A stretch of 42,579 nt of DNA. It comes from Rhizobium sp. Q54. GTDB lineage: Bacteria; Pseudomonadota; Alphaproteobacteria; UBA2966; CAIVPW01. Position 1 is the first letter of the stretch. The number at the start of each line of letters is the position of its first letter. Positions 4,279 to 18,040 of this stretch are shown here, one piece after another. The stretch is from assembly GCA_945947575.1 (NCBI GenBank), contig CAMEYM010000023.1:1-42579 (forward strand), written 5' to 3'. A program made the translations under genes and the position numbers. The notes under the pieces are model-generated. The model was not told where the DNA came from, searched no databases, and was given only the letters and a program-made list of their open reading frames with translations.

Positions 4279-5316
4279 TTACTTCTGCAGGATGTTGGTG
4301 ATTTCGCGCAGCTGGGTGCGAGCGCGCAGCACGAAGAAGCCTTCGGCGGCCAAGTGACTCGGCTGGAATTGCGCGTCAGGCTTGCCGTTCACGATGATGA
4401 GCGGGCTCAAGCTGGCGGCGTGCGCCATGCTCTCGAGCAGCTGCAGGTACGCGCCCTGAACCTCTTTCTCCGCCACGACGTTGGCGAAGTCCTTCTGCAG
4501 CTCGCGCAGGATCAGGTAGTACGCGTACATCTGACCCTTGATGCCGTAGAAGATGTCGTCGGCGCGCGTGTCGAGCCAGCCGCGCGGGTTGGCGATCGCC
4601 TGATCGAGGGCGGCGGACGACGAGCCGATGTCGAGGGCGATGCGATCGAGAGTCGCCATCAGGTTGTCGACCCGGCGCTCGAACACCGCTTGGCCTTGGG
4701 ACAGGCGCTGGTTGTAGTCGTTCAGCGCGCGCCAGGCGCGCGTGTACTGGGCCTCGGAGGTCGCGGTCGGCGCCAGCGAGGTCGAGAAATCGAAGATCCA
4801 CTTGGTGCCGGAATACTGCAAAAGGCCGGCGGCCTCCTGCAGGTCGGGATCGGTGCGGCTGGAGCCGCGCACGCGGCCGATCTGGTCGGTGAGTTCGAAG
4901 CCGAAGCGCGCCAGCGCCTGGATGATGCCCTGCTGGAACGCCGGCATGTTGTCGAGGGCCGCGCCCGGCATGAAGAACGGATCGTTGGCGACCCAGGCGC
5001 CATCGACCACCTCGCGCTGGATGAGCGCGGCGGCGACCGCGACGGCGCGGCTGCCGTTGGGCGGCACGACGAGGTCGCGGGTGCCGAAGTCGAGGCTGTC
5101 ATCGACGTGGTGCGTCAGCGCCATGCCGAGCGGGTACCACAGCAACAGGATTGCCGGGACGGTCCAGAACGCGATGCGCAGAAAGCGGCGCCTGCGTGGG
5201 GATACCGCAGCCTGGTCGGCGGCCGAGCCCGACGACGCGCTCGGGCCGCGACGGAAGGGGATGCGCACGCGGTCCCAGAACGGGAGGCGGCGCGGGTTCT
5301 CAGAAGTCTCGGCCAT
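4279..5316 (-). CDS. DUF2333 family membrane-anchored protein
   Basis: 345 residues. A basic, Ser-rich cytoplasmic N-terminus (about 45 residues, ending SPRRRRFLR) leads to one transmembrane helix (IAFWTVPAILLLWYPLGMAL). The remaining 280 residues are probably periplasmic and contain the DUF2333 features VDDSLDF and YGIKGQMYAYYLILRELQ. The function is unknown; the family is common in alpha- and gammaproteobacteria. A strong ribosome site (GGAGGGGG) precedes the ATG. It follows trpS with a 57-bp gap and precedes the AsmA gene by 104 bp, so it is probably read with trpS. The envelope location of this protein and its AsmA neighbour suggests, but does not show, a shared role. Confidence 0.88.
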   Translation of the reverse strand: MAETSENPRRLPFWDRVRIPFRRGPSASSGSAADQAAVSPRRRRFLRIAFWTVPAILLLWYPLGMALTHHVDDSLDFGTRDLVVPPNGSRAVAVAAALIQREVVDGAWVANDPFFMPGAALDNMPAFQQGIIQALARFGFELTDQIGRVRGSSRTDPDLQEAAGLLQYSGTKWIFDFSTSLAPTATSEAQYTRAWRALNDYNQRLSQGQAVFERRVDNLMATLDRIALDIGSSSAALDQAIANPRGWLDTRADDIFYGIKGQMYAYYLILRELQKDFANVVAEKEVQGAYLQLLESMAHAASLSPLIIVNGKPDAQFQPSHLAAEGFFVLRARTQLREITNILQK

Positions 5317-8038: not shown

Positions 8039-10816
8039 CTATTCGGCCGCGGGCGCGCGCACCGGCGCCGGCACCGGTTCGTCGGCAAGCGCGGCGAGCA
8101 GCTTCTCGCGCAGGCGCGTGATGCGCGGCTCCGACGTGATCTTGTGGCCGATCAGGTCGCGCACATAGAAGACATCGACGGCGCGCTCGCCGTAGGTGCT
8201 GATGCGCGCGCTGGAGATCGTCACGCCGAAGTCCAGCAGCGCATGGGTGATGGTGAACAGCAGGCCGCGGCGGTCGCGGGCGTTCACCTCGATGATGGTG
8301 AACTTGTCGCTCGCCGCGTTGTCCACCAGCACCCGCGGCTGCACGGTGAAGACGCGCGTGCGGCCTAGGTCGGGGCGCTGGCGCAACACCTTGGCCGGCG
8401 AGACCTTGCCGGTGAGGACTTCCGTGAGTGTCTTCTTCAGCTGCGCGACTTCCTCCGGCCGCGTCATCGGACCGCCGTCCGGGCCCTGCACCCAGAAGCT
8501 TTCGAGCGCCATGCCGTCGTTCAACGTGACGACGCGCGCGTTGACGATGTTGGCGCTGGCCATCGCCATAGCGCCCGCGGCGCCCGCGAACAGGCCGGCG
8601 TAGTCCTGGGCGTACACGGTGACTTCGGATACGCCTTGCTCCGGCAGCGACTCGACGTTGACGACGAGGGAGCCTGCCTCGCGGCCGAGGCCGCGCAAGA
8701 AGCGCGCGTGGCGGAGCTGGATGTCGAGGTCGAAGGAACTCCAGTAGGGGCCGTAGAAGCGCTCCATGTGCGCCTCGCGCTCGGGCGCGGGCCAGTCGGC
8801 GGTGGCGGCGATGAACGCCTGGCGCGCTTCCTCGATGCGCTGCTTGCTGGCGCCGACGATCGACTCGCCCCCCGCCAGGGCGGCTTCGGTCGCGAAGTAG
8901 AGCTCGCGCAACAGCTGCCCCGACCAGCCGTTCCAGCGGCCGGGACCGACGGCGCGGATGTCCGCGACGGTCAGCACCAGCAGCAGGCGCAGGCGCTCGG
9001 GGCTCTGCACCAGGGCGGCGAAGTCGGCGATGGTCTTGGGATCGTGAACGTCGCGGCGGAACGCCGTCTTGCTCATGTCGAGGTGCTTCAGCACGAGCCA
9101 GGCGACCGTCTCCGTCTCCTGCTCCTCCAGCCCCAGCATGGGGCCGACCCGGCCGGCGACGTCAGCGCCGAGCGTCGAATGATCGCCGCCGCGGCCCTTG
9201 GCGATGTCGTGCAGCAGCACGGCGACGAACAGCGCTCGGCGTGAAAGCACCTTGTCGATGATGTCGGTGGCGAGCGGATTCTCCTCGCGCAGCTTGCCGG
9301 ATTCCAACTTAGCCAGCATGCCGATAGCGCGGATGGTGTGCTCATCGACGGTGTACACATGGTACATGTCGTGCTGCATCTGCGCGACGACGCGGCCGAA
9401 GTCCGGCATGAAGCGTCCGAACACGCCGGCTTCGTTGAGCCGCCGCAGCGTCGTCTCGGGATCCTTGCGCGACGTCAGCATCTCGAGGAACAGTTGCGCG
9501 GCACGGCGGTCGGCGCGCAACGCAGCATCGACGTACTTGAGGTTCTGCGTCACAACGCGCAGCGCGTGAGGATGGATGTCGAGGCCGCGCTCTTGCGCTA
9601 GGTGGAACATGCGCAGCATCATCACCGGATCGCGCGCGAATACGCCGGGCTCGCCGACATCGACGCGGCCGCCGGACAGCACGAAGCCGTCCACCATCTC
9701 CGGCTTGTCGCGGCCGACCAGCGGCAGACGGAAGCGCGGACGCCGCTTGTGGCGCTCTTCCAGCACCGCGCAGAAGATGCGCGTGAGGTCGCCGACTTCC
9801 TTGGCGTAGAGATAGTAGTGCTTCATGAAGCGCTCGACCGAGCGCGCGCCGGTGCGCTGCTTGTAGCCGAGCCGCTGGGCGAGTTCGCCTTGGACGTCGA
9901 AGGTGATGCGCTCTTCGGCGCGATTGGTGATGTAGTGCAGCGTGAAGCGCACGCTCCACAGGAAGTCTTCGGCCTTGGTGAAGCGCAGCAACTCGCGCTC
10001 CGTGAACACGCCGCGTGCGACGAGCTCGGCGCGGTCTTCGACCTGGTAGAGGTACTTGCCGATCCAGAACAGCGTGTGCAGATCGCGCAAGCCGCCCTTG
10101 CCGTCCTTGACGTTCGGCTCCACGAGATAGCGCGAGTCGCCGAGCTTCTTGTGGCGCTCGTCGCGCTCGGCGAGCTTCGCCTCGACGAACGCCGGGCCGC
10201 TGTTGGCGATGATTTCGGCGCTGAAGCGCTTGCGCAACTCCTCGAACAGCTGCGCGTCGCCGCTCAGCAGGCGCGCTTCCAGGATCGAGGTGCGGATGGT
10301 GATGTCGATGCGGGAGAGGCGGATGCACTCGTCCACCGAGCGCGACGCGTGGCCGACCTTGAGGCCGAGGTCCCACAGCACGTAGAGCATGTACTCGACG
10401 ACCTGCTCGCCCCACGGCGTCTGCTTGTAGGGAAGCAGGAAGAGCAGATCGACGTCGGACGACGGCGCCATCTCGCCGCGGCCGTAGCCGCCCACGGCGA
10501 TGAACGCGAGCCGCTCGGCCTTGGTCGGGTTGGCGGCCGGGTAGACCGTCTCGGTGGCGTAGGAGAAGAGTGCGCGCGCAACATCGTCGGTCAGGCGGGC
10601 CATGGCGCGCGCGGCGCGCATGCCTCGCTCGCCGGCGTCGAAGCGCGCGCGGATGGCGGCGCGTCCTTCGGCCAAGTGACGCTTGAGTTCGGCGCGCACC
10701 GCTTGGGCCTGGGCCGGGTCGACGCCGCCGGCGGAGACCCCGGCAACGCTACGCAAGTGCTGCACCAGCGTAGGCGGGGCAGTTTGTTTGACCTCGGCAG
10801 GGGCGGGGCGCGGCAT
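8039..10816 (-). CDS. glnD: Bifunctional [protein-PII] uridylyltransferase/uridylyl-removing enzyme
   Basis: About 925 residues. Domains in order: a nucleotidyltransferase with GGYGRGEM and SSDVDLLF (about residues 109-127), a GlnD-specific helical region, an HD phosphohydrolase with LLHDIAKGRGGDHS, and two C-terminal ACT domains (TVYAQDYAGLFAG and EVNARDRRGLLFTIT). It adds UMP to PII proteins when glutamine is low and removes it when glutamine is high, and so sets nitrogen assimilation. The start is uncertain: ATG 10816 has AAAGG at good spacing, while ATG 10834 and TTG 10882 are also in frame. Two short dyads lie just upstream (separate entry). It heads the murJ-trpS transcript. Confidence 0.95.
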   Translation of the reverse strand: MPRPAPAEVKQTAPPTLVQHLRSVAGVSAGGVDPAQAQAVRAELKRHLAEGRAAIRARFDAGERGMRAARAMARLTDDVARALFSYATETVYPAANPTKAERLAFIAVGGYGRGEMAPSSDVDLLFLLPYKQTPWGEQVVEYMLYVLWDLGLKVGHASRSVDECIRLSRIDITIRTSILEARLLSGDAQLFEELRKRFSAEIIANSGPAFVEAKLAERDERHKKLGDSRYLVEPNVKDGKGGLRDLHTLFWIGKYLYQVEDRAELVARGVFTERELLRFTKAEDFLWSVRFTLHYITNRAEERITFDVQGELAQRLGYKQRTGARSVERFMKHYYLYAKEVGDLTRIFCAVLEERHKRRPRFRLPLVGRDKPEMVDGFVLSGGRVDVGEPGVFARDPVMMLRMFHLAQERGLDIHPHALRVVTQNLKYVDAALRADRRAAQLFLEMLTSRKDPETTLRRLNEAGVFGRFMPDFGRVVAQMQHDMYHVYTVDEHTIRAIGMLAKLESGKLREENPLATDIIDKVLSRRALFVAVLLHDIAKGRGGDHSTLGADVAGRVGPMLGLEEQETETVAWLVLKHLDMSKTAFRRDVHDPKTIADFAALVQSPERLRLLLVLTVADIRAVGPGRWNGWSGQLLRELYFATEAALAGGESIVGASKQRIEEARQAFIAATADWPAPEREAHMERFYGPYWSSFDLDIQLRHARFLRGLGREAGSLVVNVESLPEQGVSEVTVYAQDYAGLFAGAAGAMAMASANIVNARVVTLNDGMALESFWVQGPDGGPMTRPEEVAQLKKTLTEVLTGKVSPAKVLRQRPDLGRTRVFTVQPRVLVDNAASDKFTIIEVNARDRRGLLFTITHALLDFGVTISSARISTYGERAVDVFYVRDLIGHKITSEPRITRLREKLLAALADEPVPAPVRAPAAE

Positions 10817-10839
10817 TCCGGGCCTTTTCTGCATCCGTT

Positions 10840-10889
10840 CAAGCACATGCTTGGGCGAAACGCCAGATGCTGGACACGGCAATTGCCGT
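10840..10889. promoter_or_regulatory. Two dyads in the glnD leader
   Basis: ACGGCAATTGCCGT (10876-10889) is a perfect 14-bp palindrome. CAAGCA-CA-TGCTTG (10840-10853) is a second dyad with 6-bp arms. Both lie within about 75 bp upstream of the preferred glnD start; the second sits close to the alternative ATG. They could be operators. They do not match the NtrC consensus TGCACC-N5-GGTGCA. Confidence 0.3.
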
Positions 10890-11066
10890 CTTTCGGAGGG
10901 CGCGCGGCGTGCCGAAACACCCCTTTTGCACAGTGCCGACCGGCGCAGCGTCCGCCCATATCGGAATGGCTGCGCCTAGTGGATCGAATGGGACGCGAAT
11001 CGCCGGGCGCGGCGCCTTCACGTTCGACTCCGGGGACGCGCGCGCGCAACGGCGCGACGCGCGTTC

Positions 11067-14334: not shown

Positions 14335-14814
14335 ATGACGTTCGGAAGCGTTCCGGTGCAATGCCGCGCCGTTGGCGTGGTGGTCCTGGCGGGCAGTGGC
14401 GCCGGTACGCGCGTGCTTCTGGTCAAGCGCGGCACGGGGTCTTTCATCGGCGAGTGGGGCCTGATCACCGGCCGCATCGAGGCGGACGAGCCGGCGTGGC
14501 AGGCGGCCGTGCGCGAGGTCCAAGAAGAGGCGGGACTCGCGACGGTGCACCTCTACTCCGCGGGCTACTGCGAGAGCTTCTACGAGCCGGCCGGCAATAC
14601 CCTGGAGATCGTGCCGATGTTCGTGGCCTCGGTCGCCGCGCCTGCCGCTGTCACCCTCAACGACGAGAATACGGACTTCCGTTGGGTGACGGCCCGCGAG
14701 GCGCTCGAGCTGGTGCCGTTCCACGGCCATCGCATCGCGCTGGGTGGTGTCATTCACGACTTCGTCGAGCGGCCGGTGCAGGAGTGGCGGCGCATTCGTC
14801 AGCACCAGCCGTGA
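14335..14814 (+). CDS. Nudix hydrolase
   Basis: 159 residues. The Nudix box is complete and spans [20 protein letters not shown] plus AGL (G-x5-E-x7-R-E-x-x-E-E-x-G). It is followed by a [19 protein letters not shown] strand and [15 protein letters not shown]. The C-terminal pattern resembles dihydroneopterin triphosphate or dATP pyrophosphohydrolases (NudB group), but the substrate is an inference. Enzymes of this fold cleave a nucleoside diphosphate linked to another group, using Mg2+. Its TGA stop overlaps the ATG of the next frame by one base (TGATG), so the two are probably translationally coupled. Confidence 0.92.
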
Positions 14815-15533
14815 TGCCGCCCGCCTGCCAAGTGTGCGGCAACGCCGCGGTCGCGCCGTACCACGCGGACGCGCAAGGCGCGTTGTACCGGTGCGCGGCG
14901 TGCACGTTCGTCTTCCTGCATCCGATCCCGTCCGCCGACGTGCAGGCCGGCCTGTACGAAGCGGAGGGCATCGGCGCGCGCTATTTCCCCAAGGCCGAGC
15001 GCAAGCTGGCGCGGGCGCGCGGACGTATGCGCAAGCTGCAGCGATTCGCGCCGCGCGGTCACTTCCTCGACGCCGGCTGCAACGGCGGCTTCATGGTGGA
15101 GGCTGCGCGGCAGGCCGGCTTCGAGGCGGTGGGAGTCGAGCCCGATCCCGCGTCGGTCTCGTGGGCGATGGAGCACTTCCCCGCCAACCGCTTCGTGGTC
15201 GCCACCATCGAGCAGTTCGCGGACGGCGCGGATGAGGCATTCGACGCGGTGTACTGATCCGAGGTCATCGAGCACGCGCCGGACGCCAACCGGTTTGCCG
15301 CGGCGTTGGCCTCGTTGATGCGGCCAGGAGCGGCGCTGTTTCTGACGACGCCCGACGTCGGGCATTGGCGGCGGCCGCCGCTGGCGCGATGGGACGCCTA
15401 CAAGCCGCCCGAGCACTGCCTGTACTTCACGCCGCGCAGTCTCACGCAGCTATTGCGCAAGCACGGCCTCGAGGTCGCCGAGCGGGCGTTCGCCTGGAAG
15501 CCCGGCATCAAGGTCATCGCGCGCCGCGTCTAG
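14814..15533 (+). pseudogene. Class I SAM methyltransferase, interrupted by an in-frame TGA
   Basis: One frame of 240 codons encodes a full-length methyltransferase except for a TGA at 15255-15257. The first half has a zinc-like knuckle (CQVCGN and YRCAAC), then SAM motif [11 protein letters not shown] and acidic loop VGVEPD. The second half resumes at once in the same frame with SEVIEHAP and continues to KPPEHCLYFTPRSLTQLL and IARRV. The interrupted spot reads FDAVY-stop-SEVIEH, where relatives often have Cys, so a single TGC to TGA change would explain it. No frameshift or other lesion is visible, which points to a very recent loss, a sequencing error, or (least likely) readthrough. It follows the Nudix gene with a one-base overlap. 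Confidence 0.8.
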
Positions 15534-15577: not shown

Positions 15578-16627
15578 CTAGAGGGGCTGGGCCTCGGTGA
15601 CCGGGACATCGACGGTGTAGGCACGGCCGTCGCGGACCACCGACAAGCGTACCGCCTTCCCGCCGGGCCGGATCAACGAAACGCGGTTGTTGAGCTCGCG
15701 CGCGTTGCGAATCTGGGCACCGTTGACGGCGAGCACGACGTCGTTGACCGAAAGACCGGCGCGTTCGGCGGTCGAACCCGGCTCGACGCCCTTGATGAGG
15801 GCGCCGACCTTGCCGAAGCGCGCGAACTGCGCGGGCGCGAGGTCTGCGGCACTGACGCCGAGACGACCGCGCTTGATGTCGCCGTACGCCACCAGCTGGT
15901 CCATGACGGCGCGGGCGACATCGATGGGAACCGCAAAGCTGATGCCCATCGCCATGGCGCCGTTGGGCGGTCCGTAGATCGCGGCATTGATGCCGACCAG
16001 GCGGCCCTGGGTATCGATGAGCGCGCCGCCGGAGTTGCCGGGATTGATGGACGCATCGGTCTGGATGAACTCTTCGTGGCGCTCGGCATTGAGACCGCCG
16101 CGCCCCAGCGCGCTGACGATGCCGGATGTCACCGACTGGCCGAGCCCGAACGGATTGCCAATGGCAATGACGAAGTCGCCGACGCGCAGGGTGGATGGAT
16201 CGCCGAGCGGAACGGCGGTGAGATCTGCCGGGGAGATGCGGAGCACGGCGATGTCGGTGGCCACGTCGCCGCCGATGACTTTCGCTTCGAGCGCACGGCC
16301 GTCGTGCAGGGTGACGGCGACCGATGTAGCGCCGTTGACGACATGATGGCTGGTCAGGATGTGACCCTTCGCGGCATCGACGATGACGCCGGAGCCTTCG
16401 CTTTGACCGCGCTTGGGCAGGCCGACGACGCGCACCGAGGAGCGCACGACGCCCGATGCCACGACGCTGACGATCGCCGGCGCGGCCGCCTCGAGAACCG
16501 GCGCCAGCGTGAAGACGCCGCGCGTCTCATCGAGCGGAATGCCGGCGCCCCAAGCCGGAGCGACCATACCGACCAAGAACCCAATGATTTGCAGCGCGCT
16601 ACGCGCGATCGCCCCAACTGCGCACAT
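15578..16627 (-). CDS. HtrA/Deg-type serine protease with one PDZ domain (first of two)
   Basis: 349 residues from the ATG at 16627, which has AGGGA about 5 nt upstream. Residues 10-27 form a signal peptide or membrane anchor ending WGAG. The trypsin-like domain has the full triad: His95 (LTSHHV), Asp125 (ATDIAVLRI) and Ser199 (NPGNSGGALI). One C-terminal PDZ domain follows (GVEPGSTAERAGLSVNDVV). It is expected to degrade or refold damaged periplasmic proteins. It closely resembles the next gene upstream, and both mature regions begin GIPLDE or GIPIDE, so the two look like a tandem duplication that has since diverged. A strong terminator (16766-16798) separates them, so this copy probably has its own promoter. 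Confidence 0.93.
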   Translation of the reverse strand: MCAVGAIARSALQIIGFLVGMVAPAWGAGIPLDETRGVFTLAPVLEAAAPAIVSVVASGVVRSSVRVVGLPKRGQSEGSGVIVDAAKGHILTSHHVVNGATSVAVTLHDGRALEAKVIGGDVATDIAVLRISPADLTAVPLGDPSTLRVGDFVIAIGNPFGLGQSVTSGIVSALGRGGLNAERHEEFIQTDASINPGNSGGALIDTQGRLVGINAAIYGPPNGAMAMGISFAVPIDVARAVMDQLVAYGDIKRGRLGVSAADLAPAQFARFGKVGALIKGVEPGSTAERAGLSVNDVVLAVNGAQIRNARELNNRVSLIRPGGKAVRLSVVRDGRAYTVDVPVTEAQPL

Positions 16628-16765
16628 GCATTCCCTACGATCCCCCACCTCCAAACGAGGTACCGCAAAGGATAGGGGCAATCTGCCGCGGGGCAATGTG
16701 CGCGAGGGGATAGATGTGCGCCTTCCAAGCGTCAGCTTGGCCGGGAATGCGCAGACAAAGAGAAA

Positions 16766-16814: not shown

Positions 16815-17891
16815 CTACAGTGTCGGCGCGGTCTCGGTGATCTTCGCCTCGACGGTCTGGCTCCTGCCGTTGCGCAGAACCGTCAGGTTCACGCTGTTGC
16901 CGACTCGCGTCATGGCGACCTTGTTGCGCAGGTCGTTGGCGCCGCGGATGTTCGCGCCGTTGAAGCCGACGACGATGTCGTTCGCGACAAGGCCGGCTTT
17001 CTCGGCGGCCGAACCGGCACGCACCATCTTGATGAGGGCGCCGGCCGAGCCGATCTTGGCGACCTGATCGACGGCGACGTCTTCGATATCGACGCCGAGC
17101 AAGCCGCGCTTCACGTCACCGTACTTGACGACCTGGTCCATCACCGCGCGGGCGATATCGACCGGCACGGCGAAGCCGATGCCGATGTTGCCGCCTGGCC
17201 CGAGGATGGCCGTGTTGATGCCGATGAGGCGGCCCGTCATATCGATGAGCGCGCCACCCGAGTTGCCGGGATTGATGGATGCATCGGTCTGGATGAAGTT
17301 CTCGTAGTTCTCGATGTTGAGGCCACCGCGGCCGAGCGCGCTGATGATGCCCGACGTCACCGTCTGGCCGATGCCGAACGGATTACCGATGGCGATGACG
17401 AAGTCACCGACCTTCAACTGGTCCGGCTCGCCGAACGGAACCGCCGTGAGACGCTCCGCCGCCACCTTCAGGACCGCAATGTCGGTCGCCTGGTCGCTGC
17501 CGACCAAGATTGCATCGAGAGTACGGCCGTCGCTCAGCGTCACGCGAATGGCGCTGGCGTTGTCGATGACGTGGTGATTGGTCAGCACGTAACCCTTGGC
17601 GGCATCGACGATGACGCCCGAGCCCGCGCCCTGCACCTGGCGCTGCTGCGTGGTGCCGTTGCGGGCACGCAGCTCGGCAGTGCCCGAGACCTGGATCTGC
17701 ACGACGCCCGGCGCACGCTGCTCGAGAATGGGCGCCAAGGTCGGAATGCCACCGCGCGCTTCGTCGATCGGGATGCCGGCGGCACCGGCGACGAGCGGCG
17801 AGGCAAGCACGAACAGGATGCCGAGCGCGCCGGCCAGTCGGCCGCGGCCCAAGCTCCTGCCGGTCGGGATGTCGGTTGAATTGTTGCCCAT
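16815..17891 (-). CDS. HtrA/Deg-type serine protease with one PDZ domain (second of two)
   Basis: 358 residues from the ATG at 17891, preceded by AGAGG at good spacing. A signal peptide spans about residues 15-38 (hydrophobic GALGILFVLASPLVAG). The triad is intact: His107 (LTNHHV), Asp137 (ATDIAVLKV) and Ser211 (NPGNSGGALI). A single PDZ domain follows (VRAGSAAEKAGLVANDIVVG). DegP and DegQ usually carry two PDZ domains, so this is nearer to the DegS or short HtrA layout. The role is periplasmic protein quality control. A paired 16-bp element lies 106 bp upstream (17997-18040) and matches one before the OmpR-type gene, suggesting control by that regulator. It follows uppP on the same strand after 189 bp. 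Confidence 0.94.
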   Translation of the reverse strand: MGNNSTDIPTGRSLGRGRLAGALGILFVLASPLVAGAAGIPIDEARGGIPTLAPILEQRAPGVVQIQVSGTAELRARNGTTQQRQVQGAGSGVIVDAAKGYVLTNHHVIDNASAIRVTLSDGRTLDAILVGSDQATDIAVLKVAAERLTAVPFGEPDQLKVGDFVIAIGNPFGIGQTVTSGIISALGRGGLNIENYENFIQTDASINPGNSGGALIDMTGRLIGINTAILGPGGNIGIGFAVPVDIARAVMDQVVKYGDVKRGLLGVDIEDVAVDQVAKIGSAGALIKMVRAGSAAEKAGLVANDIVVGFNGANIRGANDLRNKVAMTRVGNSVNLTVLRNGRSQTVEAKITETAPTL

Positions 17892-17948
17892 GTGATCCTC
17901 TTTGAACCTCTGGCCCGGTGTGCCGGATATCCGGCTTCCTGAGGGCAA

Positions 17949-17976
17949 CAGATAGGCGGTCGAGGTTGCGGCACAA
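17949..17976 (-). promoter_or_regulatory. Possible promoter of the second HtrA gene
   Basis: On the minus strand TTGTGC (17976-17971) is 16 bp from TATCTG (17954-17949). Both boxes are weak, as expected for a promoter that needs an activator. The paired operator at 17997-18040 lies upstream of it. Confidence 0.3.
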
Positions 17977-17996
17977 TGTCGGCGGGGCGCCGATTT

Positions 17997-18040
17997 GTAA
18001 CGCGATGTTGCGTCCCGGACCCCTCGCAACCTGGCGTTAC
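17997..18040. promoter_or_regulatory. Paired bipartite operator upstream of the HtrA gene
   Basis: Left copy GTAACGCGATGTTGCG (17997-18012) and right copy CGCAACCTGGCGTTAC (18025-18040), whose reverse complement is GTAACGCCAGGTTGCG. The two copies face each other with 12 bp between them. Within each copy, GTAAC and GTTGC are pentamers spaced by 5 bp, the layout of OmpR/CpxR-family tandem half-sites. The same arrangement, including the central CCGGACCC, recurs at 23818-23860. Confidence 0.65.

Follow-up and report, generated by a model that had tools for sequence, protein, structure and literature searches.

Bacterial genes that carry one in-frame stop codon and are otherwise intact have been described as nonsense-mutated genes or young pseudogenes; readthrough of such stops has been argued to be frequent in prokaryotes, and many of the genes concerned not to be pseudogenes (PMC7918605). 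Bacterial selenoprotein genes, in which a TGA stands opposite cysteine in homologues, provide a second point of reference. In the available text of the Sargasso Sea selenoproteome study (PMC1088965), in-frame TGAs found in a single sequence are treated as candidates only, given possible sequencing errors, and the available portion of a 2006 survey (PMC1794560) states that rare selenoproteins arose from cysteine ancestors only where the Sec-decoding trait pre-existed. Methyltransferase selenoproteins, including MduS with its domain PF13649, feature in the accessible part of a 2026 review (PMC13188914).

The window analysed here (the whole 42,579-nt stretch of DNA) contains a methyltransferase gene interrupted by an in-frame TGA, for which an earlier note had offered three options: a fresh pseudogene, a sequence error, or recoding as selenocysteine. 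Our analysis favours the first two and strongly disfavours the third. We consider it likely that this is a dispensable methyltransferase gene carrying a recent nonsense allele; this and the other probabilities worded below are our judgement and not computed values. The features of the locus are as follows:

14335..14814, + strand: NUDIX hydrolase gene, intact (no internal stop compared to G002, the sister species), directly upstream
14814..15533, + strand: class I SAM-dependent methyltransferase gene, interrupted (translation; Pfam PF13489, 5e-26; G002 orthologue, 91% identity)
15255..15257, + strand: in-frame TGA, codon 148 (translation; codon read in 28 distinct relatives)
15306..15533, + strand: open frame remaining past the stop, 75 a.a. 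from the first TTG

Structure of the interrupted gene

On translation, the methyltransferase frame runs for 239 codons and is broken by a single internal stop (FDAVY*SEVIEH) ahead of its terminal one; its ATG is overlapped by the TGA stop of the NUDIX gene (TGATG). The encoded protein has an N-terminal CxxC...CxxC arrangement followed by a Methyltransf_23/11 domain. With the frame read with an X at the stop, the Methyltransf_23 match (PF13489) covers residues 71-222, thereby spanning both sides of the TGA, and at 91.8 bits against a curated cut-off of 27 it places the product among the class I SAM methyltransferases. Four further Pfam methyltransferase models also match the interrupted frame, while none of the five NCBIfam families listed for the protein reaches its own cut-off. 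The G002 orthologue aligns with residues 3-239; the two differ in length only by a pair of codons, which lie in a loop ahead of the stop, and this loop varies among relatives. Translation, Pfam, and this alignment together bear out the earlier claim that the gene is intact apart from the TGA, and no second lesion was seen, there being one stop only and no frameshift in the window gene compared to its relatives.

A single-base nonsense substitution would have created the TGA at codon 148, such that the protein would end after 147 residues. The truncated product is predicted to retain the first SAM-binding motifs without the second half of the fold and is most likely inactive. The frame remaining past the stop presumably lies beyond the SAM-binding motifs, judging from our reading of these, and its product is unlikely to be an active enzyme alone. 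Three further matches to the gene occur in the same genome, at 32% identity, and thus no second copy of the gene was seen; a near-mode search of the plasmid collection returned no match to it.

Codon 148 in relatives

We searched 61 genomes (this genome and 60 others, one per species), 51 of which gave some match at E ≤ 0.001. A codon alignment was built from the gene itself and the best 16 of 50 relatives (E ≤ 1.9e-33); it omits lower-ranking matches as well as a second fragment of the gene in the genus mate G003. At codon 148, these 16 best-matching relatives carry cysteine (14), threonine (1), or alanine (1). A second scan of contigs, using peptide patterns that excluded codon 148, recovered 18 loci with cysteine (16) or serine (2); six of these, all with cysteine, lie on contigs that by their length are already in the first set, leaving 28 distinct relatives. 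Across the 28, the codon reads cysteine in 24, serine in two, threonine in one, and alanine in one, with a stop in none, which agrees with the earlier statement that relatives often have cysteine here. Given that the position accepts serine, threonine, and alanine, an essential redox thiol appears unlikely. Among the relatives read, the stop is confined to this genome, with homologues carrying a sense codon and with no compensating frame change, as expected of a young pseudogene.

Selenocysteine machinery and the downstream hairpin

Recoding of the TGA as selenocysteine, via SelB and a SECIS element, would be favoured by the position itself, which is one where most relatives carry cysteine. 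None of the 28 relatives, however, has a TGA opposite that cysteine, and the four with serine, threonine, or alanine argue against a strict redox thiol. The protein does share PF13649 (40.5 bits) with the MduS-type methyltransferase selenoproteins, as these are described in the available part of the review; the CxxU and UxxG motifs given there for methyltransferases are nevertheless absent around the TGA (AVY*SEV), and the protein's NCBIfam matches include no model for an arsenite methyltransferase.

The earlier note had also proposed a search for the sel genes, the outcome of which speaks against recoding. No match to selA was found in any of the five genus genomes (this one and four mates), with a control search matching in 4 of 14 named genomes, including E. 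coli, and exceeding the cut-off in one. For selB, this genome gave seven matches, the best at 138.8 bits against a cut-off of 242.25, and we take these to be other translation GTPases (the control matched in all 14 genomes and exceeded the cut-off in two). The best selD match scored 54.6 bits against 125 and is probably another member of the superfamily. Of 363 first-look candidates for tRNA-Sec, 150 were scored, yielding 14 matches of at most 44.8 bits against a cut-off of 47, all 14 of which ARAGORN identified as ordinary sense tRNAs. Machinery for selenocysteine (selA, selB, selC, selD) was thus not detected in this genome, which is 95.67% complete, such that a missed sel locus is possible. 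We did note, in the genus mate G004, one tRNA-Sec match at a contig end (C130:7-92; 48.6 bits against a gathering score of 47), possibly a tRNA-Ser; the same genome gave no selA match.

The third point in favour of recoding is a hairpin past the TGA that satisfies a naive SECIS rule:

15260..15314, + strand: foldable hairpin past the TGA (coding-sequence background, not SECIS)

In the 61-base stretch from the TGA it folds at -27.9 kcal/mol (z -1.87; 6 of 200 shuffles as stable), with stretches of 46 and 91 bases giving z values of 0.34 and 0.07, respectively. In the window genes, a fold of at least this stability follows 12.4% of 1500 random codons, and the naive SECIS pattern follows 29%; for cysteine codons the counts are 9 and 23 of 79, respectively. 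Five relatives that were folded showed different structures and lacked the pattern. With both stability and pattern at the level of random codons, the hairpin is best regarded as background and not as a SECIS. The earlier remark that no convincing SECIS follows the TGA therefore stands, whereas the accompanying statement that only a 3-bp pairing is visible is incomplete, given this longer hairpin. With the machinery undetected, the TGA shared by no relative, and the hairpin at background level, we rejected selenocysteine, and regard it as almost certainly wrong.

Decoding of TGA in this genome

TGA is a normal terminator here, ending 13 of the 31 predicted window genes (34 window ORFs less four, plus the NUDIX gene). 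Release factor RF2 is present (501.2 bits against a cut-off of 370), and 27 of the 28 window genes compared have no internal stop, for which reasons genome-wide reassignment of TGA was rejected. The prfB gene encoding RF2 (L071, about position 1512) has an internal CTTTGA after AGGAGG, which we take to be the classical autoregulatory frameshift site. A suppressor tRNA was likewise rejected, as 42 of the 43 tRNA matches in the genome were called by ARAGORN, all with sense anticodons; a UCA anticodon is absent among these 42. The remaining match (31.8 bits, no ARAGORN call) looks like a degenerate Gly-CCC. Absent among the 42 called tRNAs are also tRNA-Trp, tRNA-Ile-GAU, and tRNA-Ala-UGC, probably due to gaps in the assembly, in one of which a sel gene could lie.

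These results also bear on the possibility that the TGA is read through at a low level or undergoes near-cognate decoding, which would yield some full-length enzyme at reduced expression. Retention of the frame, under constraint on both sides of the TGA, is in keeping with this. However, a recent mutation accounts for the constraint equally well, and in view of the anticodons, RF2, and the ordinary use of TGA described above, we consider readthrough very unlikely.

Constraint and age of the stop

Compared to G002, the methyltransferase gene has a dN/dS of 0.129 over 245 codons, ranking 18th from the lowest among 28 window genes with a median of 0.109; restricting the comparison to the gene proper (236 codons) gives 0.10. 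This ordinary ratio suggests that the stop is recent, the remainder of the frame being constrained like the neighbouring genes, although the same ratio is also expected under a consensus error or ongoing readthrough. When changes were polarised (using just the part of the G003 gene past its own deletion, see below), the window branch received 22 synonymous changes, 12 non-synonymous changes, and the one stop, and the G002 branch 23 and 8, respectively, with 21 changes (16 synonymous, 5 non-synonymous) left unplaced. The non-synonymous share is slightly higher on the window branch, a difference that is not significant (Fisher p 0.43), and the counts give no sign of a lengthy relaxed phase.

The main competing explanation is that the true gene is intact and the TGA an error of the consensus or of base calling; one base would suffice for this, with the rest of the gene under normal constraint. 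The assembly is a draft of 40 contigs and appears to be metagenome-assembled, judging from its relatives; all 18 relatives in the second contig scan are labelled as MAGs, and G003 likewise has a lesion, in a CG-rich stretch. On the other side, the contig does not seem error-ridden. Among the 28 gene pairs compared with G002, the methyltransferase gene is the only one with an internal stop on the window side. This comparison covered 28 of 33 G002 ORFs and omitted three without a counterpart, a shortened protease, and the ORF at 10145-10894 of the joined G002 stretch, which shows a stop in alignment that lies, in our reading, within an over-extended start overlapping the next gene. Moreover, only 1552 of 64386 possible single substitutions (2.4%) across 16 window genes yield a stop, such that one artefactual stop would imply some tens of errors. 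A nonsense allele and a sequence error predict identical sequence, and the tests here do not separate them; we consider an error rather unlikely. Under the favoured reading of a nonsense allele, the base is presumably genuine, and the stop may be a strain-level allele.

Dispensability and neighbouring genes

At E ≤ 1e-30, seven of the eight family genomes (this one included) have a match to the methyltransferase, with none in G006 (79% complete); the copy in G001 is cut by a contig end and is uninformative on decay. Decay elsewhere in the gene, which the earlier note had raised with regard to relatives, was found in one genus mate, G003, where a 2-base deletion occurs near codon 66 (L055, about 5190-5215) in the otherwise readable gene. 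This deletion, which is independent of the window TGA, may be genuine or an error; it would fit either a dispensable gene being lost or a further error of assembly. A switchable or low-expression gene, in which the TGA is usefully read through and on/off mutations recur across the genus (the TGA here, the deletion in G003), is in our view highly improbable.

Adjoining the methyltransferase gene are two genes for trypsin-like/PDZ (HtrA-type) proteases (window 15578-16696 and 16815-18029). The first of these has a counterpart of only 159 a.a. in G002 (L047:8401-8880), which looks like the result of an internal deletion or an assembly collapse. Between the methyltransferase and the protease, G002 also encodes an extra 245-a.a. 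protein with another methyltransferase domain (L047:8904-9641), to which nothing in the window was found to correspond.

The finding cautions against labelling the methyltransferase gene as a selenoprotein and otherwise means little beyond annotation. If the base is real, it adds a minor example of gene erosion, in a region in which the sister species also has a shortened neighbouring gene.

Comparison with known systems

With bacterial Sec/Cys-pair selenoprotein genes, as portrayed in the available text on the Sargasso Sea selenoproteome (PMC1088965), the locus shares a TGA opposite cysteine followed by a foldable hairpin. It differs in that the Sec machinery was not found in this genome, the TGA occurs in a single sequence, the hairpin is at background level, and the TGA lacks a redox motif.

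The UbiG-like class I methyltransferases (PF13489, TIGR01983) have the domain and motifs in common with the protein, and UbiG (4kdr_A) has a cysteine at the position aligned with codon 148. However, the UbiG model itself (TIGR01983) scores 54.4 bits against a cut-off of 102.95, and we have not assigned the gene as UbiG.

The probable programmed +1 frameshift site in prfB of the same genome likewise involves an internal TGA. In prfB the TGA belongs to a CTTTGA preceded by AGGAGG, and a change of frame is expected, whereas the methyltransferase TGA is without such context and the frame is unchanged.

Finally, compared to nonsense-mutated genes or young pseudogenes (PMC7918605), we found no differing feature: as in these, a gene that is constrained and for the rest intact carries a single in-frame stop, and the stop is not shared with the relatives read. 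As sequence the finding is real; as biology it is ordinary.
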